NCBI GenBank assembly: GCA_028871815.1
Contig: JAGWMJ010000001.1
Coordinates: 310,001-374,000, forward strand
DNA: 64,000 bases
From: Armatimonadota bacterium
GTDB taxonomy: Bacteria > Armatimonadota > Chthonomonadetes > Chthonomonadales > Chthonomonadaceae
Reading direction: 5' to 3'
The notes beneath the pieces were generated by a model. That model ran no database searches. It was not told where the DNA came from and was given only the letters and a program-made list of their open reading frames with translations. Below, piece by piece: positions 33,847-59,340 of the stretch; the stretch's first letter is position 1, and each line of letters starts with the position of its first letter. A program made the position numbers and the translations under genes.

Positions 33847-35019
33847 CTATGACGACTCCAGTGGCTCGGTTCCTTCGTTCATGATCTGCAGAAGCGGCTG
33901 AAACATAAACAAGCGACGGCGCTTGCGCCCGTCGACCTCAGCCAGAATGTGCATGCCGACCATCTGCCGAATGGCCTTCATGACGGTTGGGTGGCTGAGA
34001 TTGAGCGCGGCGGCCGCTGACGGCGCTGAGAATACGGGATGGGTGTTCATCCATGCATGGAGGCGCAGAAGCGTACCGGACGATGGGCCGACTTTCTGGA
34101 GCAGTATGCGTGTTTCGGTCTCCAGGTTTCGGATACGCTGGGCCGTCTCACAGGCCCGACGTGCAGTCTCTTCCACCACCTCCAGAAAGAATAGCAGCCA
34201 CTCCTCCCATACTCCCTCCATGCGCACGCGCTGCAGCAGGCTGTAATACTCGTCGCGCCGGCGCTTCAGGCCCAGGCTGAGATAGAGCAGGGGCTTGGCC
34301 AGCACCTTCTCGTTGCAGAGGATGAGCGTGATGAGCATCCGACCGAGACGCCCGTTTCCATCCAGAAACGGGTGGATGGTCTCGAATTGAACATGAACCA
34401 GCGCGGCCTTGATCAGTGGCTGGGTGGTGACCGGCTGGTTGTGCCAGAACTTCTCAAGCGCTCCCACGCAGCGAGCCACCTCGCCGGGCGGCGGTGGTAC
34501 AAAGATCGCGTTCCCCGGGCGCGAGCCGCCGATCCAGTTTTGCGACGTGCGATATTCTCCCGGGGCGGCATTTCCGCCGCGGCCACTTGCGAGCAGCAGA
34601 CGGTGCATCTCTCGCAGCAGGCGGATCGTGAGCGGTGCGCCCTCGCGCAGGCAGCCAATGCCATAAGATAGCGCCTTTACATAGTTCAAGACCTGACGCG
34701 CATCCTCGGCATGGAAGCCCGGTGTCGCTTCGATTTCGAAGAGCAGGAGATCATTGAGCGACGACTGTGTCCCTTCGATTTGCGACGATACGACCGCCTC
34801 CTTGCGAATGTAGAAGTACAGAAACATGTCCAGACTTTCCACAACCTCACTTAGGCCATCCAGCCGGCCAAGCGCGAGGCAGGCGTGTTCCAGCGCCGCC
34901 GTAGTGCGGCTGTCGGACTGCAGCGGCGGGTTGGGCGGAAGGTCAACCGGCACAAACGCCCGAAATTGCTCTCCGGGTACGCGCTGCACGAGTTGTCGGC
35001 CCTGTGGTCCACGATTCAT
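33847..35019 (-). CDS. Fic-family AMP-transferase with winged-helix C-terminus
   Basis: The 390-residue protein carries the Fic core HPFLDGNGRLGRMLI, with catalytic His, and the N-terminal inhibitory helix SSQIEGTQSSLNDLL with its conserved Glu, so it is a self-inhibited class II-type Fic protein. It would transfer AMP from ATP onto a target protein. The C-terminal ~80 residues (FSAPSAAAALNLSHPTVMKA, then IRQMVGMHILAE) look like a DNA-binding winged helix. A palindromic operator sits directly upstream, which suggests autoregulation. The ATG at 35019 lacks a clear ribosome site. Confidence 0.9.
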   Translation of the reverse strand: MNRGPQGRQLVQRVPGEQFRAFVPVDLPPNPPLQSDSRTTAALEHACLALGRLDGLSEVVESLDMFLYFYIRKEAVVSSQIEGTQSSLNDLLLFEIEATPGFHAEDARQVLNYVKALSYGIGCLREGAPLTIRLLREMHRLLLASGRGGNAAPGEYRTSQNWIGGSRPGNAIFVPPPPGEVARCVGALEKFWHNQPVTTQPLIKAALVHVQFETIHPFLDGNGRLGRMLITLILCNEKVLAKPLLYLSLGLKRRRDEYYSLLQRVRMEGVWEEWLLFFLEVVEETARRACETAQRIRNLETETRILLQKVGPSSGTLLRLHAWMNTHPVFSAPSAAAALNLSHPTVMKAIRQMVGMHILAEVDGRKRRRLFMFQPLLQIMNEGTEPLESS

Positions 35020-36948: not shown

Positions 36949-37159
36949 ATCATGGCGAGGCAGCGCGGACCCATAGGCCGCGTTGTTTGTTCGAGGCGGC
37001 TGCACCGGTGCTCGGGCTTCGACAGGCCTGCTGCCGACGCGGCCGCCGAGTTACTATGCCAGGAGCCGTTCGGCGCTCGCCGTAAAGCTGTGCCATCCGG
37101 ACCGGTAGCTCCTGCGCTTCTGGATGCTCAGCGTACGGCCTCGCAGCCCGCAGGGCGGT

Positions 37160-38195
37160 GAACTCAATTTCGCCAGCATGTTCGATGACGAAATGATGAT
37201 CGCGAATGATTCCTTTACCGCCATCCGGTCCAGATCAGTTTTCCAACTCTTGCCGGATGGCGGATTCGAGAGCATGAAGTCGAACTCACCGGTCGGGAAG
37301 CCGTCTTGAGAAAGGATCGACCCCAACCGGACGTTCCCGGCTTCTTCACCCTCTCCCTTCAGCAGCAGGTCGGCTTCAGTAATCGCATAAGTCTCGGCGT
37401 TTAATTCTTGACCATACAGATTGATCGCCACTTCCTCATCATCGTGACTAGCCAACTCGCGCAGCCGTGCCTCGGCGACGGTCAACATCCCGCGGGTGCC
37501 GCAAGCACGGCCATACACCAGGTAGATGCCCGATTCGATCTTTTAAGCGATTGGCAAGAAGATACGGTCAGCCATCAACTTCACTACGTCGCGCAGTGTA
37601 AAGTGCTCACCAGCCTCCTCGTTATTCTCTTCGTTACAGCGACGAATTAGCTCCTCGAAATTCGCCCCCATCGCGTGATTGTCGAGTGCCCGCAGGCGGA
37701 TCGAACCATCCGTATTCATAACTGGCGAGGGACCGAGATTGGTTTCGCGCGCGAGGAACTTCTCAATCAAGCTTCCAAGAATGTCGGCATCACCGAGTGT
37801 CGAAATCTGGTTGCGAAACTTGAACTTCTCCAGGATGTCCTGCACATTGGGGGAAAAGCCGTCGAGGTATGCTTCAAAGTCAGCCTTTAGCTGTTGCTCT
37901 TTCGCCCGCGCACGTAAATCGCGAAGCGTGAGCGGCGAAGCCTTGTAGAATGCTAGTCCGCAGCCTGTCGGAGTGCTGCGTCGTGATTTGTGATTCCAGA
38001 GTCATCGAGCCGGTTGTTCATGTCGAGGACTTGCTGCTTCTTCTCTTCCAAGACGGCATCCAGCCGTCGAATCACCGTCATGGGAAGGATCATGTCGCGG
38101 TACTTGCCACGCACGTACACATCCCTCGACACATCGTCTGCAATGCCCCATATGAGGTTTGCGACCCGAGCAAGGTTGCCGTCGCTTATGGCATG
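37160..38195 (-). pseudogene. hsdM: decayed type I methyltransferase subunit (hsdM relic)
   Basis: Read on the minus strand, the pieces follow HsdM in order. First is NLARVANLIWGIADD with VRGKYRDMILPMTVIRRLDA, then a 1-base loss near 37955. Next come FRNQISTLGDADILGSLIEK and EHFTLRDVVKLMADRIFLPIA, ended by an in-frame TAA at 37543-37545. Then the SAM region YGRACGTRGMLTVAEA and the catalytic SNPPSGKSW (normally NPPF) are followed by another 1-base loss (near 37228), and the gene breaks off after HAGEIEF. The start codon is also damaged. No specificity or restriction subunit is present. It is clearly inactive. Confidence 0.85.
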
Positions 38196-38611
38196 CCTTG
38201 CCTGAAATGAAGACTTTCGAAATACATACTCGGGACAACCTAGCTCAATCGGAATCACCGGACCATCTAATCTTGGGTCCGGTAGTATTATGCAGGCTGT
38301 AAAGGGAGGAATGAGGCAACGACACGGAGTCACATTTTCGCATATACAGCGTATCGTCACTGTTCCCCTCGGTCGGTCCGTAATCCTCCGTGAATTGGCC
38401 CTCTCGCTGCTTGGATCGCATCCGCGAATAACCTCCTCACACGCAGCCCCGTGACTCGCAAGCGACCTGGTCATGCCAGTCAAGCAGGATATCCAAGAAA
38501 CGAATAGAATTGATAACTAGGTTCCCTCCCGCGACCGCCTGTCTGTCGAGGAAGCAAACCATAAAGAGTAGGGCTCTCTCGACTCATGGAGCTACACGTT
38601 AGGAGCGATCG
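38196..38611. other. intergenic region upstream of the defence operon
   Basis: About 400 bases between the hsdM relic and the large operon, with no gene of its own; an open minus frame is a continuation past the relic's start. It is AT-richer than the chromosome and should contain the operon promoter. The AGGAG at 38601-38605 serves the first gene. Confidence 0.45.
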
Positions 38612-41600
38612 GTGGGCGCGAAGCATATTCGTTGTGGAAGGTTCGCGAATCTCAGCGAGCGCGAAGCGACCGAGTGGCTGCTTGCTCGACTTATCGGGTT
38701 GGGTACTAAGGACTCATGGGTTCTTCTCTCCAATTTGTCTATTTCCCCTAACTCCTCAAGATTAGCGGACGAACTTGACCTCGTTGTGATTGGTCCGACG
38801 GGTATCCACTTAATCGAAGTTAAGCACTGGGATAAGGAATATCTAAAGCGTGACCCCGATCGCATGGTCGATTTCGAGGCAGATAAGCTAAATGACAAAG
38901 CCAGACGCCTAAAGGGAGTAGTTAGTGGTCTCCATAAGTTTGACGTAGGCTTTGTCGCGGGCAAGTTGCTGCTGACCAGGGGCGAAGGCGAGAAGTTCCA
39001 GGAATCGACCGGGCGACGACGTGTTCGCGGTATTGAAGTGTTCGGACGCCCTGAATGGCGTGCATTACTAGATATAGACGGCACCGCCGCTCTAAGCGAT
39101 CAACAAGTCACTGCCATTTGCAAATCGCTCCAACCGCTTGCGGGTGCAGCATTGGATGAGTCCTTGCACACATTCATGGACTACGGTGAACTCACACCTC
39201 TGCCATCTCCATACGCTCCCTTTCATCAGGTATATCGCGGGCGGCGCAAGCCATCTCGCGATCGAATAGTCCTACACCTTTTCGACCTGTCGGCGAGCCC
39301 GGACCGCAACGCTCCTGCGCTTGCTAGGCGCGAGTTCGAGGCTATGCAGAGACTTCAAAAGTCGCCGTGGCTTCCTAGCATCCTCGACTCATTCCAATAT
39401 GCGCCGGCATATCCTGGTGAGATTGCCTTCTTTTCCTATTTGGATACCGAAGCGGCGAGCCTACGTGAGCGGGCAACAGACACGGCATGGGACTTTTCTG
39501 GTCGCCTGCACTCAGCCTTGCGGTGTGTGGATGCTCTATTGAGCCTTCATGAACCAGACGGTATTGCGACAGATGCTCCATTTCTTCATCGGAACCTAAA
39601 TCCGGATAGCGTTCGTGTTCGTTCAAACGGAGAGCCACTCTTTACGCAGCTTCAATCTGCCCGAATACCTGGTGCTGTGACGGTTGGGCCCGCGTTTGCC
39701 ACACAGATGTCGGAGCACATTTTTTTTACGGCGCCTGAAATCCGAGAAGCAGGACTTGGGGCCGCGTCCACAGCCTCGGATGTTTACGCCCTTTGTGCAA
39801 CCCTTTTGGTAGTATTCGAAAGTCTCGATGACCCGCTTGCGCCGCAGGTCTGTGCCACGCTCCAGAACGGTTTGGTAGAGGCTCCGGACGCTAGATGCAC
39901 GCTCCATTCCTTGCGTGATATGTTGGAGACCATTAAATCACTTACGAATGAGGTGTCAGACGAGGCTCCTGCTGAAAATCAGCTCGAGCCTCCTAGTATT
40001 AGCGTTGCCTATTGGGATGAGGACACTGTTCGTCCGCTTCACGGACGCTACTATCGCATCATAACTCGTCTTGGTTCCGGAGGCGTGGGGACTACATTTA
40101 AGGTAGTTGAAACCGACCGCACTGGCACTGAAGAGAAAGCAGGTCCCTATGTGGCAAAGGTCTTCACGAATCCGGCGCTCAGTGATGCAGCTATCCGAGC
40201 GTATAACCGCGTCCGTGCCAACACGGACGATCCGGCACTTGCGGGAGTTCTAGAGGTTGCGCCGAACTGGAAACCAGACGCGATCTCAGCCCTTCTCCAT
40301 TGGGTACACGGCGAGTCACTTCACGATCTAATTGGCGTACTTCCAATCCACCTTGAAGACTTAGGGGAGAGCTCGGTTGAGGAGAGTGTGCTTCGTTGGG
40401 CATGTGATCTCTGCGAAGGGCTTTCGCGCTTACATCAAGCAGGTTTGGCTCACGGCGATGTGAGCCCACGGAACATAATTGTCAATGGAGGCAGTGTTAC
40501 GCTCACTGACTATGATCTTGTGGCGGAGAGTGGTAGCCGTCCGCTCGGTGGGACCGCCGCCTATTGTGCCCCAAACGTTGAAACTCGCGTGTCCCTAACT
40601 CTCTCCGACGATCTCTTCGCTCTTACCGCCTCGCTGTTTCACGCGCTCTTCGACCGGAGACCATTTGATTACGATGGAGTATCCCAGAAGGGAAGAGGAT
40701 TGAACTGGGAAGGCATCGTCCGCGACGACTGGCCCCGTCTTTCCAACTTTTTCGACCGCGCGACTGATCCCGACCCCGCGCATCGCTTCTCAGACGCAAG
40801 GGACGCGCTCGCTTTCCTGCGAGCACTAACAGTTCCTACATCCAGAAATCCGCACATTCCCACAACCGCCGATCCGACTCAAGTGTGGACCGAACAACAT
40901 GTTCCATGGCTCGGTCAACTGCTGCAAGGATACCCCGGCTCTCCGCTTCATGGAAATGTTGAAACACGCGGACTGGACAGCGAGTTCGCTCGTGCGACGT
41001 ACGTAGAAACAGCGCTCGACAAGATGATAGCTGACGAAATCAGGTCGCGTAAGATTAGCTTGGTAATTCTCTGCGGTAACGCAGGAGACGGCAAAACTGC
41101 ATTCCTTCAGAATTTAGCGGCAAACCTCAGACTTCCACCGGTCGCCTCGGCGCAACGCATATGGAATGAGGTTCTCCCTGATGGACTTCAGCTCTATGCC
41201 AACCTCGATGGTTCCGCTGCGTATCAGGGTCGATCAGCCAATAGCCTACTCAATGAACTGTTTGCTCCATTTACAACTCCAGATTTTCCGGTCGCCAGAA
41301 CACACCTGGTGGCCATTAACGACGGCCCTTTGCTCGCATGGTTGATTGAAGCCGAACGGAGTTACCTGACCGACCAACTTGAAGCAGGTTTGCAGGCTGA
41401 GTCGGGTGAAGGGCTAGATTCGCGTATTCGGTTCGTGGACCTCAACGCTCGCTCGCTGGTTGGAGACGGATCATCCTTTAGCGGTGCCCCTCGCACCGAG
41501 TTCTTAGGCACACTGATGAGTCGAATGCTTGGCGAAGTTGAAACATGGAAGGCATGTGAGACTTGTTCAGCGCAATCCCGATGCTCGGCGCGGCACTCCG

Positions 41601-42601
41601 TTCTGTTGCTCCAAGACCCAGAAGTTGGTCTTCTCATTCGCGAACGACTAACGCGAGCTCTTCAGGCTGTTCATCAGCGAGGTGAAATCCACATAACTGC
41701 TCGTGAGCTGCGCGCGGCACTTACCTACATCTTTTTCGGCATACATGACTGCGGAGACCTTCACACTGATCCCGCTTTGCAACCTCCAGCGTACTACGAT
41801 CGAGCATTCGACCCAAACGTACTTCACCGACAGGGCGAGCTTCTTTCTGAACTCCGCGTACTTGACCCCGCCCTTGATACTCAGCCACCTATTGATAGGG
41901 AGCTATTGCGGGAGGGAATGGAGGAAGGCAATGGGTTGCCGCTCCGTTCACTACGTCGCCGAGCCTATTTCGAATGGCCCACCGAACGTATTCAGCAAGT
42001 GGGGGGAGACGAGTCAGCGCTCACGCTCGCAAGGGGGAGACATCTTGCCACGTTCCTGCGCGCGGCCGCTGGAACGGATGCGGAACGGGCGGAAATATGC
42101 ATCGACCTTTGTTCGGGCATTGCCCACCTTGAGGCTCTGCCGGCACGGGAGGCCCAATTTGACCTGAAGTTCGTCCCACTCAAGATCACACCGCGCACCC
42201 CGACCGAGACGACTTTTTGGATAAATAAACGGCGTGAGCGCTTTAAGCTCTACCCGCGGGCATCGCGCGCCGTTCCGGGGATCGATTCACTTCCGACGCA
42301 TCTCGTACTTTCGTATGAATTCGAAAACGGCCACAAGGAGGAGCTGATTATTGGTGGCGAGCTTTTCCACTTGCTCTTGGAATTGAAAGAAGGCTACCAG
42401 TTGACTGACGCCCAATCGGACGACATATTTGCCAACCTCATGATTTTCAAGCAGCGACTAACGCAGGAAGGAGATCGCGGTCTCTTCGCATCTAATCCTC
42501 AACAGGGACATCAGGTTTTCAGCGTGAGAATTGACAGGTGCGACGGGAATCAAAAGATCATTCTGGCGCCTATCAAGCTTCAAGTTGAGGAACGAGACTA
42601 A
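38612..42601 (+). CDS. NERD nuclease-like / pseudokinase / Ser-Thr kinase / P-loop defence protein
   Basis: A 1329-residue protein starts at GTG 38612 with AGGAG six bases upstream. Residues ~15-110 are a NERD domain with the nuclease-type pattern D56, E69, K71 (ELDLVVIGPTGIHLIEVKHW). Residues ~205-430 are a kinase-like domain with HRNLNPDSV, where the catalytic Asp is Asn328, so it is probably a pseudokinase. Residues ~475-745 are a second kinase with a Gly loop (LGSGGVGTTFKV), a VAK lysine, HGDVSPRNI (D616) and DYD instead of DFG. A P-loop (GNAGDGKT, 822-829) and a Cys cluster (C982, C985, C991) follow, recalling DptF. The first half recalls PglW. A phage-sensing signal transducer is inferred. 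Confidence 0.85.
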   Translation: MGAKHIRCGRFANLSEREATEWLLARLIGLGTKDSWVLLSNLSISPNSSRLADELDLVVIGPTGIHLIEVKHWDKEYLKRDPDRMVDFEADKLNDKARRLKGVVSGLHKFDVGFVAGKLLLTRGEGEKFQESTGRRRVRGIEVFGRPEWRALLDIDGTAALSDQQVTAICKSLQPLAGAALDESLHTFMDYGELTPLPSPYAPFHQVYRGRRKPSRDRIVLHLFDLSASPDRNAPALARREFEAMQRLQKSPWLPSILDSFQYAPAYPGEIAFFSYLDTEAASLRERATDTAWDFSGRLHSALRCVDALLSLHEPDGIATDAPFLHRNLNPDSVRVRSNGEPLFTQLQSARIPGAVTVGPAFATQMSEHIFFTAPEIREAGLGAASTASDVYALCATLLVVFESLDDPLAPQVCATLQNGLVEAPDARCTLHSLRDMLETIKSLTNEVSDEAPAENQLEPPSISVAYWDEDTVRPLHGRYYRIITRLGSGGVGTTFKVVETDRTGTEEKAGPYVAKVFTNPALSDAAIRAYNRVRANTDDPALAGVLEVAPNWKPDAISALLHWVHGESLHDLIGVLPIHLEDLGESSVEESVLRWACDLCEGLSRLHQAGLAHGDVSPRNIIVNGGSVTLTDYDLVAESGSRPLGGTAAYCAPNVETRVSLTLSDDLFALTASLFHALFDRRPFDYDGVSQKGRGLNWEGIVRDDWPRLSNFFDRATDPDPAHRFSDARDALAFLRALTVPTSRNPHIPTTADPTQVWTEQHVPWLGQLLQGYPGSPLHGNVETRGLDSEFARATYVETALDKMIADEIRSRKISLVILCGNAGDGKTAFLQNLAANLRLPPVASAQRIWNEVLPDGLQLYANLDGSAAYQGRSANSLLNELFAPFTTPDFPVARTHLVAINDGPLLAWLIEAERSYLTDQLEAGLQAESGEGLDSRIRFVDLNARSLVGDGSSFSGAPRTEFLGTLMSRMLGEVETWKACETCSAQSRCSARHSVLLLQDPEVGLLIRERLTRALQAVHQRGEIHITARELRAALTYIFFGIHDCGDLHTDPALQPPAYYDRAFDPNVLHRQGELLSELRVLDPALDTQPPIDRELLREGMEEGNGLPLRSLRRRAYFEWPTERIQQVGGDESALTLARGRHLATFLRAAAGTDAERAEICIDLCSGIAHLEALPAREAQFDLKFVPLKITPRTPTETTFWINKRRERFKLYPRASRAVPGIDSLPTHLVLSYEFENGHKEELIIGGELFHLLLELKEGYQLTDAQSDDIFANLMIFKQRLTQEGDRGLFASNPQQGHQVFSVRIDRCDGNQKIILAPIKLQVEERD

Positions 42602-43938
42602 TGGGCAGGAGGATTGTGGAGGAGGTTCTAGGCCGCCGTGAAGCCGGTGAACTTTGGGCAACCGGCTATCGCCCGGCATTCCCGCTGACACCCCAGGAAT
42701 TTACTCTTGGCGGTGTACTCCCTGCAGTCCTCTATATGATGCGCTGGGGTCAACGCAGAGGCAAAGGCAATTTCGAGGAGGTTTACGACAGGCCAGGAGT
42801 GGCGGGGAAGAAGGCTGCGATCTTAGATGTTTCGAACGGACTATCGAGTCGATTCGAGTGGTTCAAAGGGTTCGACAACGATGCCGGGCAGGCCATTCTT
42901 GGAGACTTATTACTGGCGTACTGTCTTGAGAACCGCCGACACTGTACTGGAAGAGAGGAACAGGTACAGCGCGTTTTTCCAACTCACTACTTCGCAAGTT
43001 GGGTAGATTTGCCTCCAAGAGTCGCGCATTTGCGAGGCGTCCCAGAACTCGTAACAACCACTCTTGCCCGGCAATTACACGGCCCGGTGCTAGAACGCAG
43101 CCATCGGGGACATTTTGCAGTCGGCCGGGATTTTGACAGTAACCTCCTGCTTAGGATCTTCGGCACTGGTGCCTATATCGAAGGGCAGCCCGACAACCTC
43201 AGCTCCGACCGCTTCGATGAATCCGCAGATGTGGGACTAGATCAGCTATTGACAATCCGACTTGCGCAGTCATTGCACGGTGCTCCTACTAAGATGCGCG
43301 ATGAGAGCCCCGACATCATCAATCAACAGCCAGTCTCCTTGCGCGCCACCGAGACCTTCTACGACGATCTAAACGTCTTCCTTCGCGCGTATGGGACAAC
43401 GATTCCGCGACAGGCTTTATTGCCAATTCTCGAATCGTACCTAGCTCTTGGTCTCACAAACATTCTCTTTTCCACGCTTAGAATGCTACTTCAGTGGGCG
43501 GAGTCGGGCACACTTCCCCCTAAGGCCGACGAGAGCTCCTGGTCCGTGTTTGTCGATTGTTCGATGTCGATGGACTACGATTTGCGGCGAGCATCCGAAG
43601 AAAGCATGGATGACCTTGTTCAACGCTTGGGACGTTTGCCTGTTTGCATGATGTGTCTCCGTATACTGGATCAACGCGCCCGCCAGGAGCGTCTCGATGG
43701 TTTACCGGAGCCCACACCCGACCCAACAAACAGAGTGAACTACTTAGGAGATTTGCTCTTCGATCGCCTTGAAGCCAGTAGAGATATTGAAAAAGACATT
43801 CGACGGACCTGTTTCAAACTCTCGGACGCGTTAAAGGATTCGGGCGAGGATAGCCCCGCGGTCGACCTACTCGATGACGACAACCAGAAGCCGGCATGGC
43901 GCCTGGCTGGGCATGGCGCCTGGCTGAGGGTTTGGTAA
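42601..43938 (+). CDS. unknown 445-residue protein of the kinase/HerA operon (possibly DptG- or MAD7-like)
   Basis: The ATG overlaps the previous stop (TAATG), so it is translationally coupled. The protein looks mostly helical, with conserved-looking segments EFTLGGVLPAVLYMMRWGQR, FYDDLNVFLRAYGTTIPRQA and ILESYLALGLTNILFST. A lone DxSxS sequence (from D319) is present, but the rest of a VWA domain is not evident. By position it equals the DptG slot in F-G-H restriction modules or MAD7 in methylation-associated defence; I cannot confirm homology by eye. No signal peptide or membrane segment is seen. Confidence 0.7.
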   Translation: MGRRIVEEVLGRREAGELWATGYRPAFPLTPQEFTLGGVLPAVLYMMRWGQRRGKGNFEEVYDRPGVAGKKAAILDVSNGLSSRFEWFKGFDNDAGQAILGDLLLAYCLENRRHCTGREEQVQRVFPTHYFASWVDLPPRVAHLRGVPELVTTTLARQLHGPVLERSHRGHFAVGRDFDSNLLLRIFGTGAYIEGQPDNLSSDRFDESADVGLDQLLTIRLAQSLHGAPTKMRDESPDIINQQPVSLRATETFYDDLNVFLRAYGTTIPRQALLPILESYLALGLTNILFSTLRMLLQWAESGTLPPKADESSWSVFVDCSMSMDYDLRRASEESMDDLVQRLGRLPVCMMCLRILDQRARQERLDGLPEPTPDPTNRVNYLGDLLFDRLEASRDIEKDIRRTCFKLSDALKDSGEDSPAVDLLDDDNQKPAWRLAGHGAWLRVW

Positions 43939-43940
43939 TC

Positions 43941-44375
43941 ATGATGGGTAGCTCAGTGCAATTGGGTCAGTTTAGGAAGTGCTTGGACGCGTCAATGCAT
44001 GTAGATAACCCAAACGGCCTTGGTCGCAAGCGGACGAGTACAGTCCAAGGCCGTCGGGCTGAACGACGTTCAGTCGTCTTGTCTAACACGGTGTTGGACT
44101 TTCTCGTTCACAGGCACCTACGTGGTGCGAACAAGGGGACGCGCCCTCGAAACCTGTCCATGCACGACTTCCTGTCTATTCTACGTCAGCGATACGGCTT
44201 TTATGTCGACGAATCCCCACCCGGACTGTCAGTTTCCTCTGACCTTCTTAACAGAAACCGCGCACTATTTGAGCGTCGGCTACGGGATCTCGGATTGTTT
44301 GTGGGTGTGAATGATGCTGAAGCGATGAAACGCCTTCGTGCGAGGTTTGACATCGAGGGCACCGACGATGTCTGA
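43941..44375 (+). CDS. unknown 144-residue protein of the kinase/HerA operon
   Basis: I chose ATG 43941, three bases after the previous stop, with GAGG upstream; an opening at 43896 overlaps that gene. The N-terminal ~50 residues are basic. The rest (SNTVLDFLVHRHLRGAN, then LSMHDFLSILRQRYGFYVD and FERRLRDLGLFVGV) is helical and could be a winged-helix-like module. It ends inside the start of the next gene. Family unknown. Confidence 0.68.
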   Translation: MMGSSVQLGQFRKCLDASMHVDNPNGLGRKRTSTVQGRRAERRSVVLSNTVLDFLVHRHLRGANKGTRPRNLSMHDFLSILRQRYGFYVDESPPGLSVSSDLLNRNRALFERRLRDLGLFVGVNDAEAMKRLRARFDIEGTDDV

Positions 44376-47300
44376 AATAACCTCAGAAGGCATGTTGTCT
44401 GAAGTGCACACTCGGTCACTGCGCGAAGCTTTTTGCTCGCTCCTCGGATCCCCGTCTGAAGGAACGATGGCTTTCGCGCGATGCCTATCGCCCGAAACAG
44501 TCGCGGCTCTGACCGCCATAACCCCACTTGAGATACCGGGATGGGAGGTTTATGGCGTCGTTGGCGAAGATGTAACAGGCGCTCGGCAGATTACCGCCGA
44601 TCAGGCAATAGACTTGCGCGAGGCTAAACGCGATAGCATTCTGCTACTAGTAGATATTCACTCCGCGGGTGCCGGAATATATGGCATCTATAGCGCTGTT
44701 CGTGAAATCGGAGAGCGAGACTTGTTTACGGCTGCCATCGCCGCAACTAAGAAGCTCCTTTCACGAACTGACCGGTCCTTCGCTGAGGAGGCCTGCCGTC
44801 GTGGTCGCAGGCTGGGCCGGCTCAACGCCATCTCGCCCTGGCGAGAATTCGATTTTTATGCGTCATGTGCAGGTAACCCATCTTCAATTGGAGCCGAGGT
44901 CTCACGACTCGGCCTGTGGCCAATTGCCAATAGAGAAGGTGGTAGCAAGAGTGAGGACCTCGAACGCTCCGCAGTCATTGTGGAACGTCTCCTACTTTCC
45001 TCTAGCGCTACACTCACAGCTCGGGCGCGTGTTGACACGCTTCTCTTACCCGCTGAGGACAGGGTTAGGGCAGTAGAGTTGGAGAAGTTTCTCCGTGACA
45101 CAGACGGGCTCAGATGGACCGATGCGATTTTGCGAGCACGATACCATCCAGCAGTTTGGCTTAACGCGATCAATCCTGGATTTGACAGCCAGCAATTGAA
45201 ATCAATAGAAATAGTAAGCTGGCGTTCAAGACCCGATGCTGACCCTCTCAAGTGGTCCGGATTACGGTGTGGGCCGGAAGGCGTACTTCAGTTCATTCTA
45301 AGCGTGGACGAACGAGAAAGCGAGCAATGTCGCCTAACTGTACGATGGAAGGTGGCCCCTCCCGGTTTGGACGCTGGCGCGATCACTTACAAAATTGCAG
45401 TTGTGACAGGACAACGAAGCGAACTTGCTTCACGTGAGGTTAGCCACACCGGCAAGGAAACTCAGCAATGCGTTTTTTCCGGAGCGGACTTTGCCGACCT
45501 GGATACCGACGGAAAATGGGAGGTGAAAATCGTTGTCCATCCCGTCGGTGAGTCGGAACCCAGCCCATTCGATGAACGCGATTCATTGCGGTGGAAAGAG
45601 AGCGAGGAGTTTATTCTGCAATTTGGTCATTCGGATGATCCTCACGCGGCAGTTGGACTTGGGCGAAGAGTCCGTGCGCTGGTCGAGGAAGCAGTTAAAC
45701 TCAACCAAGACGAATTCGCTCTTGCGTGCACGACGTCAATCACAGAAGACCGACAAAGCTGCATCGGCTACCGTATAGCAGGGCGAAGCGCGCGCGTCTT
45801 TCGACCACCAATGTTAAGAGCCATTGAGGAAGAGTGGTACGCTCGCGATGGCCGCGCTGGCCGATGGCGTGTCCGTGTGCGAGAAGACGGGACACCACTA
45901 CGACCACCAGAATTCGTCGAAATGTCTCAGCAAGCACTGCAGGATAGTTCGTGGCGCAGAATGGAGGACACCTCTCGTCTGCTTTCGCAACGCGCGAAAG
46001 GTCGCGGTGGCTTACTCGGTTTGATACACCATGACAGTGAGCGTACTACAGACTACGTCAATGCGTGGGCGACCGCTTTAGAAGCCGCACTTAGTGCCGG
46101 CAGAGAAGACCTGACTCTGGTTCACACGTTGGAAGTTCAGTCACTGGACGGCACGGTACGTGGACTGATCGTATTACCCTCTCATCCACTTCGAATCGCA
46201 TGGCATCAGGCATATGATGAATTGGGCTATTACATGCGATATCAAGAGAAATTGAAAGCAGCAGAAGTTGTTAAGACACTTCACGAGTTGGACGGCAGCT
46301 TCATTCCGGCCTTTTTGCCGGGGCTCAACATGGGCGAGGTTTTCGTATTTGGGGACACACTTGGATTCTACACGGTTGCTATGACGCTCCATGATGAACC
46401 GGAGCCGCAAGCCACGATTGCGCTACTTGCTCGCTGCCTCGCCTCTTCCCGCGAGGAGTTTGCCCTGTCAGTTGGATCGACGGCGGCACAAGCTCTTTCG
46501 CGCGAGATCACCAAGTACGCTGACCTCCACGATGAATTTGACCCACTGCATATTCATGCACTGCGCCCTGGCGACGGCTTCATGGTGGCTCAGGCACTTG
46601 GTCAGACCCTGCGTCCTAATGAACTTTCTGGCAGACCGATCGACGATATCGATGACGAGAGCAATGAAGCCCGTGTTGCGGCCGTACCTACGGGGCGTCT
46701 GACCGGTCCGGGTTTTCGCCTCAATCTCTTCCCGAGTGCGGCATCTCGCGATGCGAGCCTATCAGGCCGATTTCTAGCAGAAATCGCTGAGCGAAGACGT
46801 GCTGGTGCCGGTGCGGTTCCCGCTGAAGATCGGTGGATGTTGGAGACATATGAGAAAGAGGGTATCACGCAGCCACGATTGAAATGGGCGCGGCGCGATC
46901 ACTCAGAGCCCCGCGAACCTGCACACCTCGCGTTAGCATTCGACACATTTGACTCAAGCATTGAGACAGTTCCCGTTTCGTCCCTTCATGAAGCGCGACC
47001 GCTTGAAGCGTTCGGGATGGTCCCCGGAATCGCCAGGGTTTTCTCATTCCGACCGACACCGACCTGGATCACGATGGTTGCCCCAAATGTTGATGGTGAA
47101 AAGCACCCGCACGCCCGAGTTCTCACCGATCGGCTTCTGCGTCTTCACGCCGTTATTCTGCGTCTTGTGGCCGCCAATCTGGGCGGCGGAGTTGATTCTT
47201 GGCCGACCCTCAAAACGCATATATCAGCTGATAAAGCGGATTCAGTTCGTCGCCTACACGAGTTGAGCGACTGGGTGGTTACAGTGGACCGGAACGCGGG

Positions 47301-49491
47301 TATTGAGTACTTCGATGCACCAAAGGAGGCAGGCGACATCTATGAGACCTACGTGATAGATTGCGTCCCGGAGAGACAAGACCTCGACTTCATCCAGCTC
47401 GTCACTTCCACAAGCAAGATTGACGAAGTCATGCGGCTCCTGGATCGAGCTCTTGCGGATATGAATCTCAGTAGCAGTCCGCGCAATTGTGCTTTCTTGC
47501 TTGATCGACTTAAGGCCATAAGCGGTCGACTTGCGATGCGGTTTTCCAGCCGCGGGTCAGACCGGGGCGAATTGATTTCGCTGGCTCTCTTTGCGGATAA
47601 CTGTCTCCGGGCAGACGACGACTTAGCGGTATGGCCATCATTGTTCCGTGGGTTTCTAGTTCCGCTTGACGATGTTCGAGACCTACTATTTGGCGACGGC
47701 CGCATTCCACAAGGTGAGTTTTATGAGTCAGCAGAACAACCCGGCCACCTACGTGCAGACCTCGTACACATCTCTACTTCACGACGCGGGTTGCTTCAAT
47801 TTCAGTTTATCGAGGTCAAGTATCGGCGCTTGCTTCGGTCAGCATTGGATCCTGCCCTGCGAGCTTACATCCGGAAACAATTAGGACACACCCGGCAACA
47901 ATGGATGCAGAGCTATTTTAGCCCGACCCTCAGCCCAACACAGGCCGCAATTCGGCGCAAGAAACTCGCGCGAGCGCTACGCTTCTACGCAGACAAGGCC
48001 CGTCGTCACTCACTGAATGAAGAAGGACATAAACGCATTCTCACAGCGATTGACAGGCTTTACCGTTCGGATGCGGAAGTATCGGGTGATGTTCTTGAGG
48101 ACCGCGGGTACATATTCTGCCCTGAGCGGTCAGGTGGCGCGATGGAGGTGGATTTCGATGGCGCGAGCCGCATTTATCTATTTGGTCACGAAGGAATGCC
48201 AGACGCGGTTCCTAGCGCGGCTTTCATACCAATTGCGCCTTCAACGGCCGAACCACTAGTTGCCATTCCACACTCATATGGAATTGGTGATGAAAGCATA
48301 GATGCTTCATCTCAGGTCCATGACATGGAAGGAACAAGTGCGAGGGTAGGCCCCGACCATTCCCTCGATTTGGCGCTGCCAGACCATCAGAGTGAGGATT
48401 CCGCAGAAATACACCCGCAATCCGACCTCGCCGCTCCTTTCCAGCTTGGTGCAGGGAGTCTGCTGCTCGGAAATGCATTCGTGGGAGGCACACGTGTTAA
48501 CTGGAACGTCTCTGTTCACAGTAATCCGCATCTGATGATCGTGGGGCAACCTGGCACTGGAAAGACATATTGCCTAGTCCGTCTTTGCCGCCAGCTTCGC
48601 AAGTTAGGAATAGCACCTGTCATCTTTGACTTCCACGGCGACATCGAGGAACGACTCGCTTCAGAAGGCGAAACTTTGCGTTTTTCAGACCTGGAGAAGG
48701 GAATTGGCTTCAACCCGATGCGCGTTGTCCGAACGGGTGAGAACGCCTGGATAGACAACGTAGCTGATCTTCGCGATATCTTCGCGGCCATTTATCCCGA
48801 CCTTGGAGATCTGCAAACTCATGAAATCCGCGAAGCGATAAAGGAAAGCTACCGCGAATGTGGCTTTGGCCAATCGACGGGGATGAGCAGTCCCGGTATT
48901 CAGGAGCCGCCTAGCTTTCAACGTTTCTATGACATTCTCACCGAAAAGCCGAAACCGAATATCGGTGTCCTCGCTCGCCTCGGCGAGTTAAATGACTATG
49001 GCTTTTTCCGCAACACGGATTCTCCTTCGACATTACTCGATACGCGAGATCCAACGATCGTCCGTCTATATCGTACACAGAATGAGGTACTTCAGAACGC
49101 GCTGGCCTCGTTCGTGCTGTTCAACCTCTACCAAAACATGTTTCTAAGAGGACCTCAGCACACCCTTACGCATTCAATTCTCTTTGATGAAGCCCATCGG
49201 GCGAGCCACCTCAAGCTCATACCAACGATGGCGAAAGAGTGCCGCAAATATGGCCTCGCAATGATCGTGGCATCACAGGAGGCCAAGGATTTCAACGTCT
49301 CACTTTTCTCCGCCATTTCAAACTACCTTATACTGCGAGTCACAGAAATCGACGCGAAGTTCCTAGCTCGCACCGTTGGAGCAAATGCGGAAACGCATGC
49401 GCTTGCGAGTCGCCTGAAGTCACTTGCAGATCGCACGGCGCTCTTTTTCAGCCCCGGAAAGCGTCCAACTGGAATTGAACTACAGGAGTAG
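44368..49491 (+). CDS. large PD-(D/E)xK / HerA-like ATPase protein (DptH- or MAD8-like)
   Basis: The ATG at 44368 overlaps the previous stop by 8 bases and gives 1707 residues. The first ~1000 residues are unfamiliar. A nuclease-type signature follows: D1131 (ADLVHIS) and E1149-x-K1151 in FQFIEVKYRR. The C-terminal ~330 residues are a HerA/FtsK-type ATPase, with Walker A GQPGTGKT (1393-1400), FDFHGDIEERL after it, and Walker B ILFDEAHRA (D1607, E1608) followed by a sensor-type IVASQEAKDF. Size and layout resemble DptH. It is likely the DNA-translocating effector of the operon. The role is inferred. Confidence 0.82.
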   Translation: MSEITSEGMLSEVHTRSLREAFCSLLGSPSEGTMAFARCLSPETVAALTAITPLEIPGWEVYGVVGEDVTGARQITADQAIDLREAKRDSILLLVDIHSAGAGIYGIYSAVREIGERDLFTAAIAATKKLLSRTDRSFAEEACRRGRRLGRLNAISPWREFDFYASCAGNPSSIGAEVSRLGLWPIANREGGSKSEDLERSAVIVERLLLSSSATLTARARVDTLLLPAEDRVRAVELEKFLRDTDGLRWTDAILRARYHPAVWLNAINPGFDSQQLKSIEIVSWRSRPDADPLKWSGLRCGPEGVLQFILSVDERESEQCRLTVRWKVAPPGLDAGAITYKIAVVTGQRSELASREVSHTGKETQQCVFSGADFADLDTDGKWEVKIVVHPVGESEPSPFDERDSLRWKESEEFILQFGHSDDPHAAVGLGRRVRALVEEAVKLNQDEFALACTTSITEDRQSCIGYRIAGRSARVFRPPMLRAIEEEWYARDGRAGRWRVRVREDGTPLRPPEFVEMSQQALQDSSWRRMEDTSRLLSQRAKGRGGLLGLIHHDSERTTDYVNAWATALEAALSAGREDLTLVHTLEVQSLDGTVRGLIVLPSHPLRIAWHQAYDELGYYMRYQEKLKAAEVVKTLHELDGSFIPAFLPGLNMGEVFVFGDTLGFYTVAMTLHDEPEPQATIALLARCLASSREEFALSVGSTAAQALSREITKYADLHDEFDPLHIHALRPGDGFMVAQALGQTLRPNELSGRPIDDIDDESNEARVAAVPTGRLTGPGFRLNLFPSAASRDASLSGRFLAEIAERRRAGAGAVPAEDRWMLETYEKEGITQPRLKWARRDHSEPREPAHLALAFDTFDSSIETVPVSSLHEARPLEAFGMVPGIARVFSFRPTPTWITMVAPNVDGEKHPHARVLTDRLLRLHAVILRLVAANLGGGVDSWPTLKTHISADKADSVRRLHELSDWVVTVDRNAGIEYFDAPKEAGDIYETYVIDCVPERQDLDFIQLVTSTSKIDEVMRLLDRALADMNLSSSPRNCAFLLDRLKAISGRLAMRFSSRGSDRGELISLALFADNCLRADDDLAVWPSLFRGFLVPLDDVRDLLFGDGRIPQGEFYESAEQPGHLRADLVHISTSRRGLLQFQFIEVKYRRLLRSALDPALRAYIRKQLGHTRQQWMQSYFSPTLSPTQAAIRRKKLARALRFYADKARRHSLNEEGHKRILTAIDRLYRSDAEVSGDVLEDRGYIFCPERSGGAMEVDFDGASRIYLFGHEGMPDAVPSAAFIPIAPSTAEPLVAIPHSYGIGDESIDASSQVHDMEGTSARVGPDHSLDLALPDHQSEDSAEIHPQSDLAAPFQLGAGSLLLGNAFVGGTRVNWNVSVHSNPHLMIVGQPGTGKTYCLVRLCRQLRKLGIAPVIFDFHGDIEERLASEGETLRFSDLEKGIGFNPMRVVRTGENAWIDNVADLRDIFAAIYPDLGDLQTHEIREAIKESYRECGFGQSTGMSSPGIQEPPSFQRFYDILTEKPKPNIGVLARLGELNDYGFFRNTDSPSTLLDTRDPTIVRLYRTQNEVLQNALASFVLFNLYQNMFLRGPQHTLTHSILFDEAHRASHLKLIPTMAKECRKYGLAMIVASQEAKDFNVSLFSAISNYLILRVTEIDAKFLARTVGANAETHALASRLKSLADRTALFFSPGKRPTGIELQE

Positions 49492-50401: not shown

Positions 50402-52684
50402 CTATTGGTCTGTGACCGATTCTTCGAGGCTCAACTCGTCTTCGCCAGCTGCATCACGCTTCAATGTCGCGAAGTATTGCTCGATGGCTGCGCGGCAGCG
50501 CTCCTCGCACGCCTCCCGCTCATCCCGGTCGCGCAGCCGTGCCCAGACTGTACAATTGACCTCATAGAACGCGCGGTCACGGGCGTAGCCGACGAAGTCC
50601 ATGCGGGAAAACCGGTTGAAAGGGCCGACGTTGATGACCTGCTGCACCTCCGATCTTGTTAGGCCCGCAGGTTCACGCAGCCGCGACATTCCTCGCTCGG
50701 CCTCCAGACCGCAGGCGAGCCTGGTCAGGTAGAAACGGTGGAACCGGTCGGCCACGTCGCTCACGCGGGCGCGGCCGTGGTCATCCACGCACTCCAGCAG
50801 CGCCAGGAACCACACGGGCTTGTAGGAGTGCGTCATATCCATCGCGGCCAGGAATCGCACGAAGTCGTCATAAAGGGTTTCGTCCGTGACCTCCGCCAGC
50901 CCGTACTTCGCCCGTATCTCAGCCACGCGGTCCGCAGCGAAGTAGGGCACCCGGCTGCGGCGGCCAAGCTCCACAACCTCGTCGGCCGGCAGCTCGCCGC
51001 GCAGCCATCGGTCCAGCACCCAGCCCTCTGACTTGCGCAGCATCCGCGAGAGCGCGGGTGCGGTGACCATTCCCTCCACGCGCTCCTGCCAGTCGAAGAT
51101 GTCCACGAGCTGGTAGTCGGTGGCCCACAGGTGGAGCCGTAACTCCTGCGGCAGTGCGCCGTCCTCATCCTGGAACACGCGTGCGCCGGCCCGGTAGCGC
51201 GCTTTCCGAAGGAGCCGGTGCAGGCTGAGAGCGCGGTTGTGTCGTGAAAAGACATCCACAAAGTCGAAGACAACGAGGTAGTCCTTGCCGGCGTGACGGC
51301 GCATGCCACGGCCGAGCTGCTGCTGGTAGAGCACCTTCGAGAGCGTGGGCCTGCCCATCAGCAGCACTTCCGTTCGCGGCGCATCCCAGCCCTCGTTCAA
51401 CACGTCGCAGGCACAAAGCACTTGCAGCTTCCCGCGGTCGTACGAATCGAGGACTCTCCGTCGGTCGTCCTTTGCGAGCTGCCCACTGACAGCGGCGGCG
51501 GGCACGCCTGCCTCGCGGAACCGCCGTGCCATCTCCTCGGCGTGCGCCAAGCTGACGCAAAAGGTGACTGCACTGCGGCCATGCACGTTCCGGCAGTATG
51601 TGTCCACAATCAGGGCGTTGCGCTCCGGCACGGTCACCCGCTGCTCCAGGTCCGCCTGCCGGTAGACCGTGCCGTTGAAGCGCAAGTTCCGAAGATCCAC
51701 GTTCGTCTCGACGCGGAAGCAGCGAACGTCGCACAGCACTCCCTGTCGCACAGCGGTCTCCAGGTCCATCCGGTGTGCGGCCTCGCGGAAGACCTCCAGC
51801 GCACTCAACCCATCGGCGCGGTCTTCCGTGCCCGTCAGGCCCAGCAGGAACTGCGGATCGAAATACCGCACGACGGCTTGGTAGGTTCTGGCCGTGGCAT
51901 GGTGGGCCTCATCGATCACGATGTAGCCGAAGTGCCGGGCGTCGAAGCGGTTGAGCTGGCCGTGCATCGCCTGGATGGTGCCGACGATCACCTGTGCCCG
52001 CTCGTCGCCTCCGTCGCCCAGCCGTGCCCGCGTCGCCTCCGGCCACAGCTCTGCGAATCGAGCGATCGCCTGGTCCACTAGCTCGATTGTGTGCGCCAGG
52101 AAGAGGCTGCGCAATCCCATCCGACGGGCATCTTCCACTGCCGTCGTCGTCTTTCCGGCGCCCACAGCGTGTGAGAGGAGGGCGATCTCGTTCCCCTCGC
52201 GGCGGAGCGCATCGAGGCTGGCCAGCGCCTCCCTCTGGTGCTCAAACAGCTCGACCAGGGCGCCGCGTTTGCAGGGCAAATGCTCCTGCGGGATGACTAG
52301 CCGCACGGGGGCGTCAAGCAGAACGGAAAGGTGCTCGCGAACGCGCTCGGGATCTTTGCCGATCTGCCAGTCGGACCAGCGCAGCACGCGCCAGCCTGCG
52401 TGGATCAGGCTATTCTGCCGCACAAGCTGGTCGGCGTAGTCGCCGTGCGCCAGGACAGCAGGGTGGTGGTATGTCTCGCCATCTATCTCAATTGCATAGC
52501 GGTCGAGGAGCGATTCAAGGGCGAAGTCGATGAACCGGCTGCGCCCCTCGATGTCCTCATATCCGTACTGCGGCACGAGCTTGGCGGCCGCCGCAGGACC
52601 GAACACGTCCTGGAACAGCTCGACGAAGCGCTCTTCTGTACGATATGGAGTGGCAGTACGAGCTGACAATATGGTCCTCGGCAA
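50402..52684 (-). CDS. DUF559/Vsr-like nuclease fused to SF2 DEAD/DEAH helicase
   Basis: The 760-residue protein begins with an endonuclease-type domain (RFIDFALESLLDRYAIEIDG, then YHHP and GWRVLRWSDWQIGKDP), like DUF559/Vsr nucleases. The SF2 helicase core follows: Walker A VGAGKTTTA, DEAH box VIDEAHHATA, LGLTGTEDRADG, and the C-terminal motif VI QQLGRGMRRH. The last ~250 residues are of unknown fold. The TTG at 52684 is the first start, with no strong ribosome site. It is the only intact gene between the two tRNA-Val repeats, so it may be an integrated defence cargo. Confidence 0.82.
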   Translation of the reverse strand: MPRTILSARTATPYRTEERFVELFQDVFGPAAAAKLVPQYGYEDIEGRSRFIDFALESLLDRYAIEIDGETYHHPAVLAHGDYADQLVRQNSLIHAGWRVLRWSDWQIGKDPERVREHLSVLLDAPVRLVIPQEHLPCKRGALVELFEHQREALASLDALRREGNEIALLSHAVGAGKTTTAVEDARRMGLRSLFLAHTIELVDQAIARFAELWPEATRARLGDGGDERAQVIVGTIQAMHGQLNRFDARHFGYIVIDEAHHATARTYQAVVRYFDPQFLLGLTGTEDRADGLSALEVFREAAHRMDLETAVRQGVLCDVRCFRVETNVDLRNLRFNGTVYRQADLEQRVTVPERNALIVDTYCRNVHGRSAVTFCVSLAHAEEMARRFREAGVPAAAVSGQLAKDDRRRVLDSYDRGKLQVLCACDVLNEGWDAPRTEVLLMGRPTLSKVLYQQQLGRGMRRHAGKDYLVVFDFVDVFSRHNRALSLHRLLRKARYRAGARVFQDEDGALPQELRLHLWATDYQLVDIFDWQERVEGMVTAPALSRMLRKSEGWVLDRWLRGELPADEVVELGRRSRVPYFAADRVAEIRAKYGLAEVTDETLYDDFVRFLAAMDMTHSYKPVWFLALLECVDDHGRARVSDVADRFHRFYLTRLACGLEAERGMSRLREPAGLTRSEVQQVINVGPFNRFSRMDFVGYARDRAFYEVNCTVWARLRDRDEREACEERCRAAIEQYFATLKRDAAGEDELSLEESVTDQ

Positions 52685-55710: not shown

Positions 55711-58011
55711 TCAGCGGGTGCGCTTGATCTCCTGCTGAGATCGAGCGATCAGATCATCGTCCGCCCGCTTTACATGTACTGCGATGGTCTGCTCCTTTGC
55801 CGGGTTGGACCAGTTGAGCTGCGTCGTCGCCGCGTACGAGTCCACCGCCTTCCGAATAGGGGCACCTTCGTTGCAGGCGGTCAGCAGGATAGGTTCCGAC
55901 GTGCCCTGTGTGAGCGTCGCTCGCGTCGTTCCGACAAACACAGCCTCGGCGGTTGTGAGCTGGACGGCGGTAGGTTCCGCCACGTTCTGCGGAGCGCCTG
56001 CCTCGTCGATCTCCCACAAGCGGACCGGAAACTGAGTCTCTTTGTGAAGCTCAATCAAGTCCACTCGGGCATCTTCTGACAGGCACCCAATACGGATCAG
56101 CCGCTGCTTCGCCGTCTCGATGGCCTCTGCCTCGCCCGCGCAGATGCGACCGTCGCGTATGACGAGCAGCGAGGTCAACGGGTGGGCATCGCGGCGGGGC
56201 CAGCCGTCCTTGATGAACCTCACCAGCTCGTTCTGAAGGAACTCAGGGTTGATCGCTTCGGCTTTCGTGTCCAGCTTCTGCTGCACGTCTGACCAGAGTT
56301 GGAAAGCGGGCGTAAGCCCTACACCACGGTTCACGAGGATCGTGAATCCGAGGTAGCGACGGTCATGCCCGACATCGATTACGAGCTGCGCATCATAGGC
56401 GTCCGCACCGTCGATCCGCCACGGGATCGCGTCCATCTGCTGGAGAACATCCAGTGCGGACATGCGCACAAACTGCTCCCATTCCCGCCGCCCTCGGTCG
56501 ACAGACACCTTCCCCGTCCGCCTATCCGTCACGCCATCGATCAGGCTCCGGTAGCTACTACAGAGCCGACGCTGTGTAACGCGCTTGACGCGCCAACCAT
56601 CCAGACCCTTGGCGACCGAATAATATGCCGCAGGTTCCTCGTTTAGAACGAAGACCACCATGCCGTCGTCCCGTACGCGCTGGAGCGTATCGACAGCCTG
56701 TTCTATCGACCCGTACTCGACAAGCTCGAAAGCAAACGGGCTACCCGTCCAATCAGACGCCATCTCGCACATGCTGGAGATGAAACGCTGTGCGGCATCT
56801 AGGCCCATGCCCTTCGGGTAGGCGCAGTAGAGCGTCCGATGCGTGGTCGGAGGAAGGTAGTAGAAGCCACCATCACTGAGCATGTCCGTACGCCTTCGAT
56901 GATAGCTGGCATGGACGGTCGCCGCCGTTCGGGTCGGAGCCAACTTGCGGTCCCGTCCAAATTCGAGCGTGGGGAGCGCGGGCCTCCAAACACGGCCAGG
57001 AGCAGGACGCCAATACTCACGCTCGGTCCCAGGTGCGACGAAACCGCATGGGCGGTCGCCCAGTTCGGCCCAAAACCCGTCGATGTAGTTGCGCCTGTCG
57101 GCAGGAGCGATCTTGTCGATGTCGCGGAGGCCGCGCGGCAGGTTGTCGTTCATCACGCGCACGCGAAGAAGGCTCCCGGCCACGGGCCGCTCACCCATGT
57201 CAAAGAAGACGTACACCGCAGGCGTGTCGTCGGTGACGCCTAGCTCAGGATACACCGCCGTGTAGTAATCCGTGAGCGACGAGTATGTCTGGTCTTTCAC
57301 CCTGATAGGCACTTGTCCGCACGTTTTCCCGTCCGCATGAGAGAAGTAGACGCGCATCGTCCTGCCCATGCTGTAGACCAGCGTGCCGCGCTGCCCCTCC
57401 TGCCGGTTCGCTAGACGGTCGAACAACGTGTGTCGCCGCTCGCGTTCCTGCGCAGATTGTGTTGGGTCGAAGAACCAGGCCAGATTCTGCGTCGTAAGGA
57501 AGGCAGTCTGTACGTCGGCGGCGATCCCGATCCCAACCTCCTCGATGAAGCGCGCGCCAAGCGCGATGCACCTGTACGCCGCGATCCCCATCTCTTCTTG
57601 GAACGGCTCTGGGTCATACCATTTGCGCGGGCTGGAAAGGGTCCAGCGGCGTCTCTTGCGGTGGACTTGCGCAAGCACAGCTCGCTCTACGAGATCGGGA
57701 ATGGAGGCGCGCCCTCGTTCCTCTCGAAGCGAGAGCTGTCGGGCAGGCTCGCCAGCGTCGAGGATCGTAGCTTCCCAGTTCTCCTCCTGCATTCGCATCT
57801 CAGGGATCGCGCGTGACGTGGCGACAAGAAGAGCGTCATTTCCCACGACTACGCTCGCCAGCCCTTGCTGGTACCGAAGCCGCCCGCACATCCTCTCTCG
57901 CTGATTCTCGGTCAGGCGAGTACCGACGATCTTGGCCGCCCGCGTGGGCACCCAAAGGTCGCACCCTCGCTGAACCAAGCGTATCGACGTTTCGACGATG
58001 GGTTCACGCAT
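55711..58011 (-). CDS. long prokaryotic Argonaute (PIWI)
   Basis: I chose ATG 58011 (766 residues) because AAGGAG lies 8 bases upstream; the frame is open to 58197. The MID part has FVLNEEPAAYYSVAKGLDGW. The PIWI domain shows D546 in QLVIDVGHD, D620 in VIRDGRI and a C-terminal D751 in VHVKRADDD. E585 or E590 could be the glutamate finger, so the DEDD-type catalytic set is probably complete. It should use short guides to cut invading nucleic acid. The start overlaps the Cas4-like gene's stop by 8 bases, so the two are coupled. Confidence 0.83.
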   Translation of the reverse strand: MREPIVETSIRLVQRGCDLWVPTRAAKIVGTRLTENQRERMCGRLRYQQGLASVVVGNDALLVATSRAIPEMRMQEENWEATILDAGEPARQLSLREERGRASIPDLVERAVLAQVHRKRRRWTLSSPRKWYDPEPFQEEMGIAAYRCIALGARFIEEVGIGIAADVQTAFLTTQNLAWFFDPTQSAQERERRHTLFDRLANRQEGQRGTLVYSMGRTMRVYFSHADGKTCGQVPIRVKDQTYSSLTDYYTAVYPELGVTDDTPAVYVFFDMGERPVAGSLLRVRVMNDNLPRGLRDIDKIAPADRRNYIDGFWAELGDRPCGFVAPGTEREYWRPAPGRVWRPALPTLEFGRDRKLAPTRTAATVHASYHRRRTDMLSDGGFYYLPPTTHRTLYCAYPKGMGLDAAQRFISSMCEMASDWTGSPFAFELVEYGSIEQAVDTLQRVRDDGMVVFVLNEEPAAYYSVAKGLDGWRVKRVTQRRLCSSYRSLIDGVTDRRTGKVSVDRGRREWEQFVRMSALDVLQQMDAIPWRIDGADAYDAQLVIDVGHDRRYLGFTILVNRGVGLTPAFQLWSDVQQKLDTKAEAINPEFLQNELVRFIKDGWPRRDAHPLTSLLVIRDGRICAGEAEAIETAKQRLIRIGCLSEDARVDLIELHKETQFPVRLWEIDEAGAPQNVAEPTAVQLTTAEAVFVGTTRATLTQGTSEPILLTACNEGAPIRKAVDSYAATTQLNWSNPAKEQTIAVHVKRADDDLIARSQQEIKRTR

Positions 58012-58996: not shown

Positions 58997-59340
58997 TACT
59001 GATCCCTCCGCAGCCCCCTTAGCTCCTGACTCAGCGCTCGCCACTCGTCATCTGTCAGGCCGATCCGCTGCGCTTCGCGTAGGAACTCCTGGGCGGCGGC
59101 GCTTGAGCTGACGGTCTTCTGCACGTCGGACGGCATCTTGCCGATTTGCGACAGCAGATTCTCGGGCTGTACGCCGATGATCTCACAGAGCTTCACCACA
59201 GTGTCTGCGGCCGGAGGCGGGATGCGCCCGTTCTCAATCTTGCTAATGTAGGAGAAGTCCACGCCCGCCCGGTCCGCCAGTTCCCTCTGACTCAGCCCCG
59301 AATCCCGTCGCGCGTCTCGCAGCGCCTCGCCGAAAGTCAT
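58996..59340 (-). CDS. XRE-family HTH regulator of the Argonaute operon
   Basis: The 114-residue protein starts at ATG 59340 after GAGGAG. It has a clear HTH: FGEALRDARRDSGLSQRELA followed by DRAGVDFSYISKIENGRIPP. The helical C-terminus may dimerise. It is first in the operon and overlaps the nuclease gene by one base. A palindrome overlapping its own -35 box indicates autorepression. Confidence 0.9.
   Translation of the reverse strand: MTFGEALRDARRDSGLSQRELADRAGVDFSYISKIENGRIPPPAADTVVKLCEIIGVQPENLLSQIGKMPSDVQKTVSSSAAAQEFLREAQRIGLTDDEWRALSQELRGLRRDQ

Follow-up and report, generated by a model that had tools for sequence, protein, structure and literature searches.

What does a pseudokinase do beside an apparently intact kinase in a polypeptide that also carries a nuclease domain and an ATPase module, and to which system does such a protein belong? 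The gene in question lies on the forward strand of the window, i.e. the whole 64,000-nucleotide stretch of an Armatimonadota (Chthonomonadaceae) genome analyzed here (contig JAGWMJ010000001.1, positions 310,001 to 374,000), and forms an uninterrupted ORF of 1329 aa from the GTG at 38612 to the stop at 42601. Sequence comparison identifies its product as the putative DndF subunit of a DndFGH anti-invader defence system. The features of the gene, with the two kinase domains termed K1 and K2, are as follows.

38612..42601, + strand: dndF-type gene with the order NERD, K1, K2 and DndF core (P-loop, lid and Zn site, then alpha+beta); ORF, Pfam, PADLOC, NCBIfam and 70-sequence alignment
38633..39121, + strand: NERD nuclease domain, about residues 8-170, with D56, E69 and K71; Pfam NERD 8.8e-8
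39164..39931, + strand: predicted pseudokinase K1, about residues 185-440, with HRN at 326-328 and Q346; AF2 model, PDB kinase matches at Z of about 20, residue counts
40043..40891, + strand: protein kinase K2, about residues 478-760, with K516, D616 and D633; Pkinase 1.6e-13, PknA 1.1e-7, residue counts
40937..41881, + strand: DndF P-loop NTPase and helical lid, about residues 776-1090; SspF and DndF profiles, AF2 pLDDT 87.5
41555..41596, + strand: Zn-ligand-like insert in the lid, with C982, C985, C991 and H995; Cys/His counts
41909..42565, + strand: C-terminal region, residues 1100-1318; AF2 secondary structure

The initial annotation had described tandem kinase domains, one of them dead, between a nuclease and an ATPase, and Pfam, AF2 and residue counts in 70 homologues agree on this layout. 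At the N-terminus, Pfam NERD matches residues 21-81 (8.8e-8), and the D, D/E and K residues of the domain are retained in 70/71 homologues; the MAD6 model of NCBIfam matches residues 3-402 (3e-43). Comparison with kinase profiles gave a Pfam Pkinase match to K2 at residues 481-692 (1.6e-13), and every motif previously read in this domain is intact, namely the Gly loop (488-493), the VAK Lys516, the HGD Asp616 and the DYD Asp633. K1 has no Pfam Pkinase match of its own and only a sub-threshold APH match. The HRN motif and missing DFG noted earlier correspond to H326-R327-N328 in place of HRD and to Gln346 at the DFG-Asp position, and a His occupies the beta-3 Lys position. The AF2 model of K1 (residues 178-470, 45 sequences) is a confident kinase fold (pLDDT 87, pTM 0.84). 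Its top Foldseek matches are PknB structures, and the best VIA-align match is PknB of M. tuberculosis (Z 20.5, 234 residues aligned). The pseudokinase proposal, which depended on a kinase fold in this region, is upheld by the model, and K1 is predicted to be a kinase fold with lost catalytic residues.

The alignment behind these counts comprises 70 fused proteins, including the window protein and two order-level relatives. At the catalytic Asp position of K1, N is found in 43 proteins, A in 19, D in 4 and G and L in 2 each, whereas the K2 position holds D in 67, N in 2 and A in 1. Loss of the Asp from K1 (66/70) together with its retention in K2 (67/70) is not due to chance. We consider it very improbable that K1 has catalytic activity as an atypical kinase: HRD does occur in the K1 of 5/80 homologues, but in the window protein His replaces the beta-3 Lys, Asn the HRD-Asp and Gln the DFG-Asp. 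K1 has pairwise dN/dS values of 0.01-0.27, comparable to the other domains, and is maintained by purifying selection. Allosteric control by K1, as originally suggested, is possible; ligand sensing, the other suggestion, is assigned by the published DndF model to the P-loop and alpha+beta domains and not to the pseudokinase (PMC10853773).

The relation between the two kinases was traced in a set of 80 proteins. Three have a dead K2, i.e. the sister proteins L022 and L023, which are near relatives of the window protein (~33% identity), and L040. The HRD-Arg of K1 is present in 77/77 proteins with a live K2 and absent from all three with a dead one. General decay is an alternative explanation of this joint loss, since it represents two independent events only and the NERD residues of L040 are gone as well. 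L022 and L023 retain NERD and P-loop residues with the K2 residues gone, and the dN/dS of their dead K2 is relaxed (0.42 versus 0.10 for the P-loop). Because K2 catalytic residues were lost in two lineages, K2 catalysis is dispensable in places, and the lineages with two dead kinases but persisting nuclease and P-loop residues provide a natural experiment on what the kinases are for. A search of three further phyla for more K2-dead relatives added nine usable sequences, all with intact K2 residues. The near-universal loss of the K1 Asp and the tracking of a live K2 by the HRD-Arg are the basis for the idea that K1 is a dead-kinase reader, which would bind a residue phosphorylated by K2 and relay this signal to NERD and DndF; we hold this to be improbable.

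As an interpretation, the initial annotation was right in seeing a pseudokinase and a kinase on one chain with NERD and P-loop modules. The system escaped it because neither the DndF core in the P-loop module nor dndG and dndH further downstream were recognized. SspF and DndF profiles match residues 798-1053. The Walker A motif GNAGDGKT (822-829) is invariant in 70/70 proteins except at residue 824 (A or P); N903, an Asn replacing the Walker B Asp, is also invariant (70/70) and closes a core strand in the AF2 model. Cysteines C982, C985 and C991 of the Zn-like site are found in 70/70 and H995 in 40/70. The Walker A, Asn and Zn-like Cys features match those of published DndF (PMC10853773). About a dozen helices make up the lid (model residues 193-415), which corresponds to a long-lid DndF, and the AF2 secondary structure of the C-terminal region is compatible with the alpha+beta domain of DndF. 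The core shares only ~28% identity with mainstream DndF cores, and TIGR03238 (DndF) scores 14.1 bits on the window protein against a 50-bit cut-off. Among solved structures, a sequence search found none clearly related to the core, and Foldseek returned no match to its model at E <= 0.001. Its nearest folds are AAA+/STAND (RdrA, Z 9.3; Avs5, Z 8.5), marginal values for a domain modelled within a longer segment; at such marginal Z the model is less like P-loop kinases.

Downstream of dndF, on the same strand, are the following features.

42601..43938, + strand: 5' part of a dndG/MAD7-like gene, 445 aa, frame broken near 43908; MAD7 7.3e-18, tblastn
43893..43926, + strand: 17-bp tandem duplication shifting the dndG frame; perfect repeat
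43896..44375, + strand: 3' part of the dndG/MAD7-like gene in another frame; mad7 1.3e-10, blastp to residues 451-609 of L022 DndG at 1e-33
44338..49491, + strand: dndH-like gene encoding an REase and a C-terminal HerA/FtsK-type ATPase; DndH 3e-19, mad8 1e-19

These genes match MAD7/SspG and then DndH/mad8, in operon order. The ATG at 44368 is the more likely start of dndH. Its product carries D1141, E1159 and K1161 of the REase, K1409 of Walker A and D1617-E1618 of Walker B, in columns kept in 66-70/70. Other traits of DndFGH systems are a triple wHTH in DndG and, in DndH, a TRD along with inactive SWI2/SNF2 and methylase domains; both window proteins were compared at the level of sequence. 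The SspF/DndF profiles, the dndG and dndH matches, the invariant core motifs and the intact DndH residues together indicate that the operon is DndFGH. Domain order, catalytic residues, operon order and homology to MAD6-7-8 were observed directly at the dndF locus.

The state of the operon is a separate matter. When intact DndG homologues were used in tblastn, the alignment stopped at 43908 and restarted at 43914-43920, coinciding with the 17-bp duplication. In relatives DndG is intact (roughly 520-615 aa), and dndF stands beside intact dndG and dndH elsewhere, e.g. in L022, L028 and L133. A type I hsdM pseudogene (37054-38483, - strand) lies upstream, divergent from dndF; this remnant matches HsdM_N and then pieces of N6_Mtase, contains a frameshift and a stop, and is truncated after the NPP motif. 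Since dndG is split by the duplication and the hsdM pseudogene lies upstream, the system may be broken here, and the split dndG may itself have disabled it in this genome. That the locus is a decaying pseudo-operon that no longer works, which would be compatible with DndFGH identity, is a serious possibility that we put short of an even chance. The break in the dndG frame at 43908-43917, compared with intact DndG in relatives, and the adjoining damaged hsdM speak for decay, but neither dndF nor dndH is interrupted and every catalytic residue is present in both, an ATG at 43896 could allow translation of the second dndG ORF, which overlaps the first, and the frame break may reflect an assembly error or a reversible slip.

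Taken together, the protein is in our judgement probably the DndF of a restriction system of DndFGH type that lacks a modification module, and this judgement extends to the roles of the subunits and domains. Following published models, the P-loop and alpha+beta domains of DndF would sense infection, DndG would bind DNA, and DndH would translocate on DNA as a HerA-type ATPase and cut with its REase. We additionally propose that K2 has a regulatory part, phosphorylating the complex or a partner, that the dead K1 scaffolds and controls K2, or reads it, and that NERD would supply an additional nuclease output. Alternatively, NERD and the kinases might be not regulators but backup suicide effectors that are turned on host DNA or proteins should the main restriction fail, as has been proposed for DndF and PglW (PMC10853773, PMC12839542). 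This would fit the conservation of NERD residues in 70/71 homologues and the short DndFs without NERD-K1-K2 that occur in otherwise similar operons; however, a protein acting solely as an effector would have no use for a dead tandem kinase that is conserved, and L022 and L023 have lost K2 residues yet retain NERD and the P-loop. We regard the effector role as rather unlikely; the observations are compatible with both roles. Predictions at the level of residues (K516, D616, R327, E69/K71 and K828) make the role of the module testable.

A genome scan with the single window protein as query gave no matches, and a scan of species genomes with an alignment of the DndF core recovered at least 398 DndF-core relatives. 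The core was found in 10/291 sampled genomes of the phylum of the window, and in 26/400, 3/396 and 2/392 sampled genomes of the phyla to which L033, L045 and L046 belong, respectively. Some other loci encode a short DndF without NERD-K1-K2, and MAD2 and MAD5 relatives are both present in ten of these short-DndF loci. Upstream sequence of at least 3 kb was available for 61 fused DndFs, of which 43 lie near MAD2 and/or MAD5 relatives and 18 do not; these proportions of operon types are not prevalences because the sample was ranked by similarity to one query. Trees of the core and of K1K2 both contain a mainly stand-alone clade (support 0.976 and 0.969, respectively) and a mainly modification-linked clade (0.996 and 1.0). 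Since the same main clades appear in both trees, the fusion of NERD-K1-K2 to DndF is old. The window protein groups with L022 and L023 (1.0). With midpoint rooting, the core tree puts this group outside both clades, and in the tree of K1K2 it adjoins the modification-linked one; the window protein is placed on a third deep branch. G169 is also closely related to this branch and has an intact K2 and a full dndG. Divergent from its dndF are three large genes (L133 658-6296, - strand; 718, 679 and 518 aa) without Pfam or NCBIfam match, and examination of these upstream genes for a methyltransferase gave no family match. G217 (L134 1385-4989) has two copies of dndG in tandem, paralogues of 607 and 594 aa that share 50% identity, flanked by dndF and dndH. 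In L026 (6824-11441), one gene encodes NERD and a kinase and its neighbour a kinase and DndF, next to PAPS-reductase-like and DUF4007 genes.

Several other genes of the window were recorded, all on the - strand. The helicase encoded at 50402-52684 has an N-terminal MTES_1575/DUF559-type nuclease domain and is likely another defence gene. A prokaryotic Argonaute gene (55711-58197; VbAgo match 1.4e-11) overlaps a PD-(D/E)XK nuclease gene (58004-59044; PDDEXK_1 1.4e-14), and a Fic-domain protein is encoded at 33847-35019 (SoFic match 1.8e-112).

How does the locus compare with known systems? The NERD-pseudokinase-kinase-DndF layout itself has already been described: tandem inactive and active S/T/Y kinases and NERD are listed among the N-terminal fusions of DndF (PMC10853773), and the identical tripartite arrangement is stated for PglW of BREX type 2 (PMC12839542). 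The window adds a member of a divergent branch, its partner gene damaged; new here are the K1/K2 residue counts, the selection on K1, the third deep branch and the split dndG.

With PglW the window protein has its NERD-pseudokinase-kinase N-terminal half in common, and the PglW profile matches. It is nevertheless hardly credible that the protein is a PglW-like part of BREX type 2, a candidate ruled out by score and C-terminus: the match reaches 33.4 bits where the cut-off is 990, a DndF core stands C-terminally instead of the wHTH and iSTAND of PglW (PMC12839542), and the operon has dndG and dndH partners with no PglX or PglZ seen in it. SspF and SspG profiles of SspF-SspG-SspH match the window weakly; unlike that system, the window has fused NERD and kinases, and SspABCD were not seen among the neighbours. 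A phosphorothioate Dnd modification partner was rejected, as DndC was not above cut-off genome-wide (best 20.9 bits versus 290).

MAD6-MAD7-MAD8 of the methylation-associated defence system MADS are homologous to DndF-DndG-DndH of the window and stand in the same order, but the MAD2 methyltransferase, MAD3 and MAD5 were not seen in the window operon. Full-length relatives far exceed the MAD6 and MAD7 cut-offs, and L072 exceeds those of MAD2, MAD5, MAD6 and MAD7, so MAD6-7-8 corresponds to the DndFGH module. In the window, MAD6 scores 148.2 bits versus 460 and MAD7, on the split gene, 64.9 versus 410; the best MAD2 match in the genome has 31.9 bits versus 720. A full MADS was rejected on these below-cut-off MAD6 and MAD7 scores and the lack of a MAD2/MAD5 partner in the operon. 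The published subset of DndF with NERD and an inactive and an active kinase (PMC10853773) has the same domain order, core motifs and DndG/DndH partners, and its modification genes are likewise not linked; the window differs in its deep branch with L022, L023 and G169, in the HGD and DYD of K2 and in the split dndG. These comparisons suggest that the kinases of DndF, MADS MAD6 and PglW can be unified as one old NERD-pseudokinase-kinase module.
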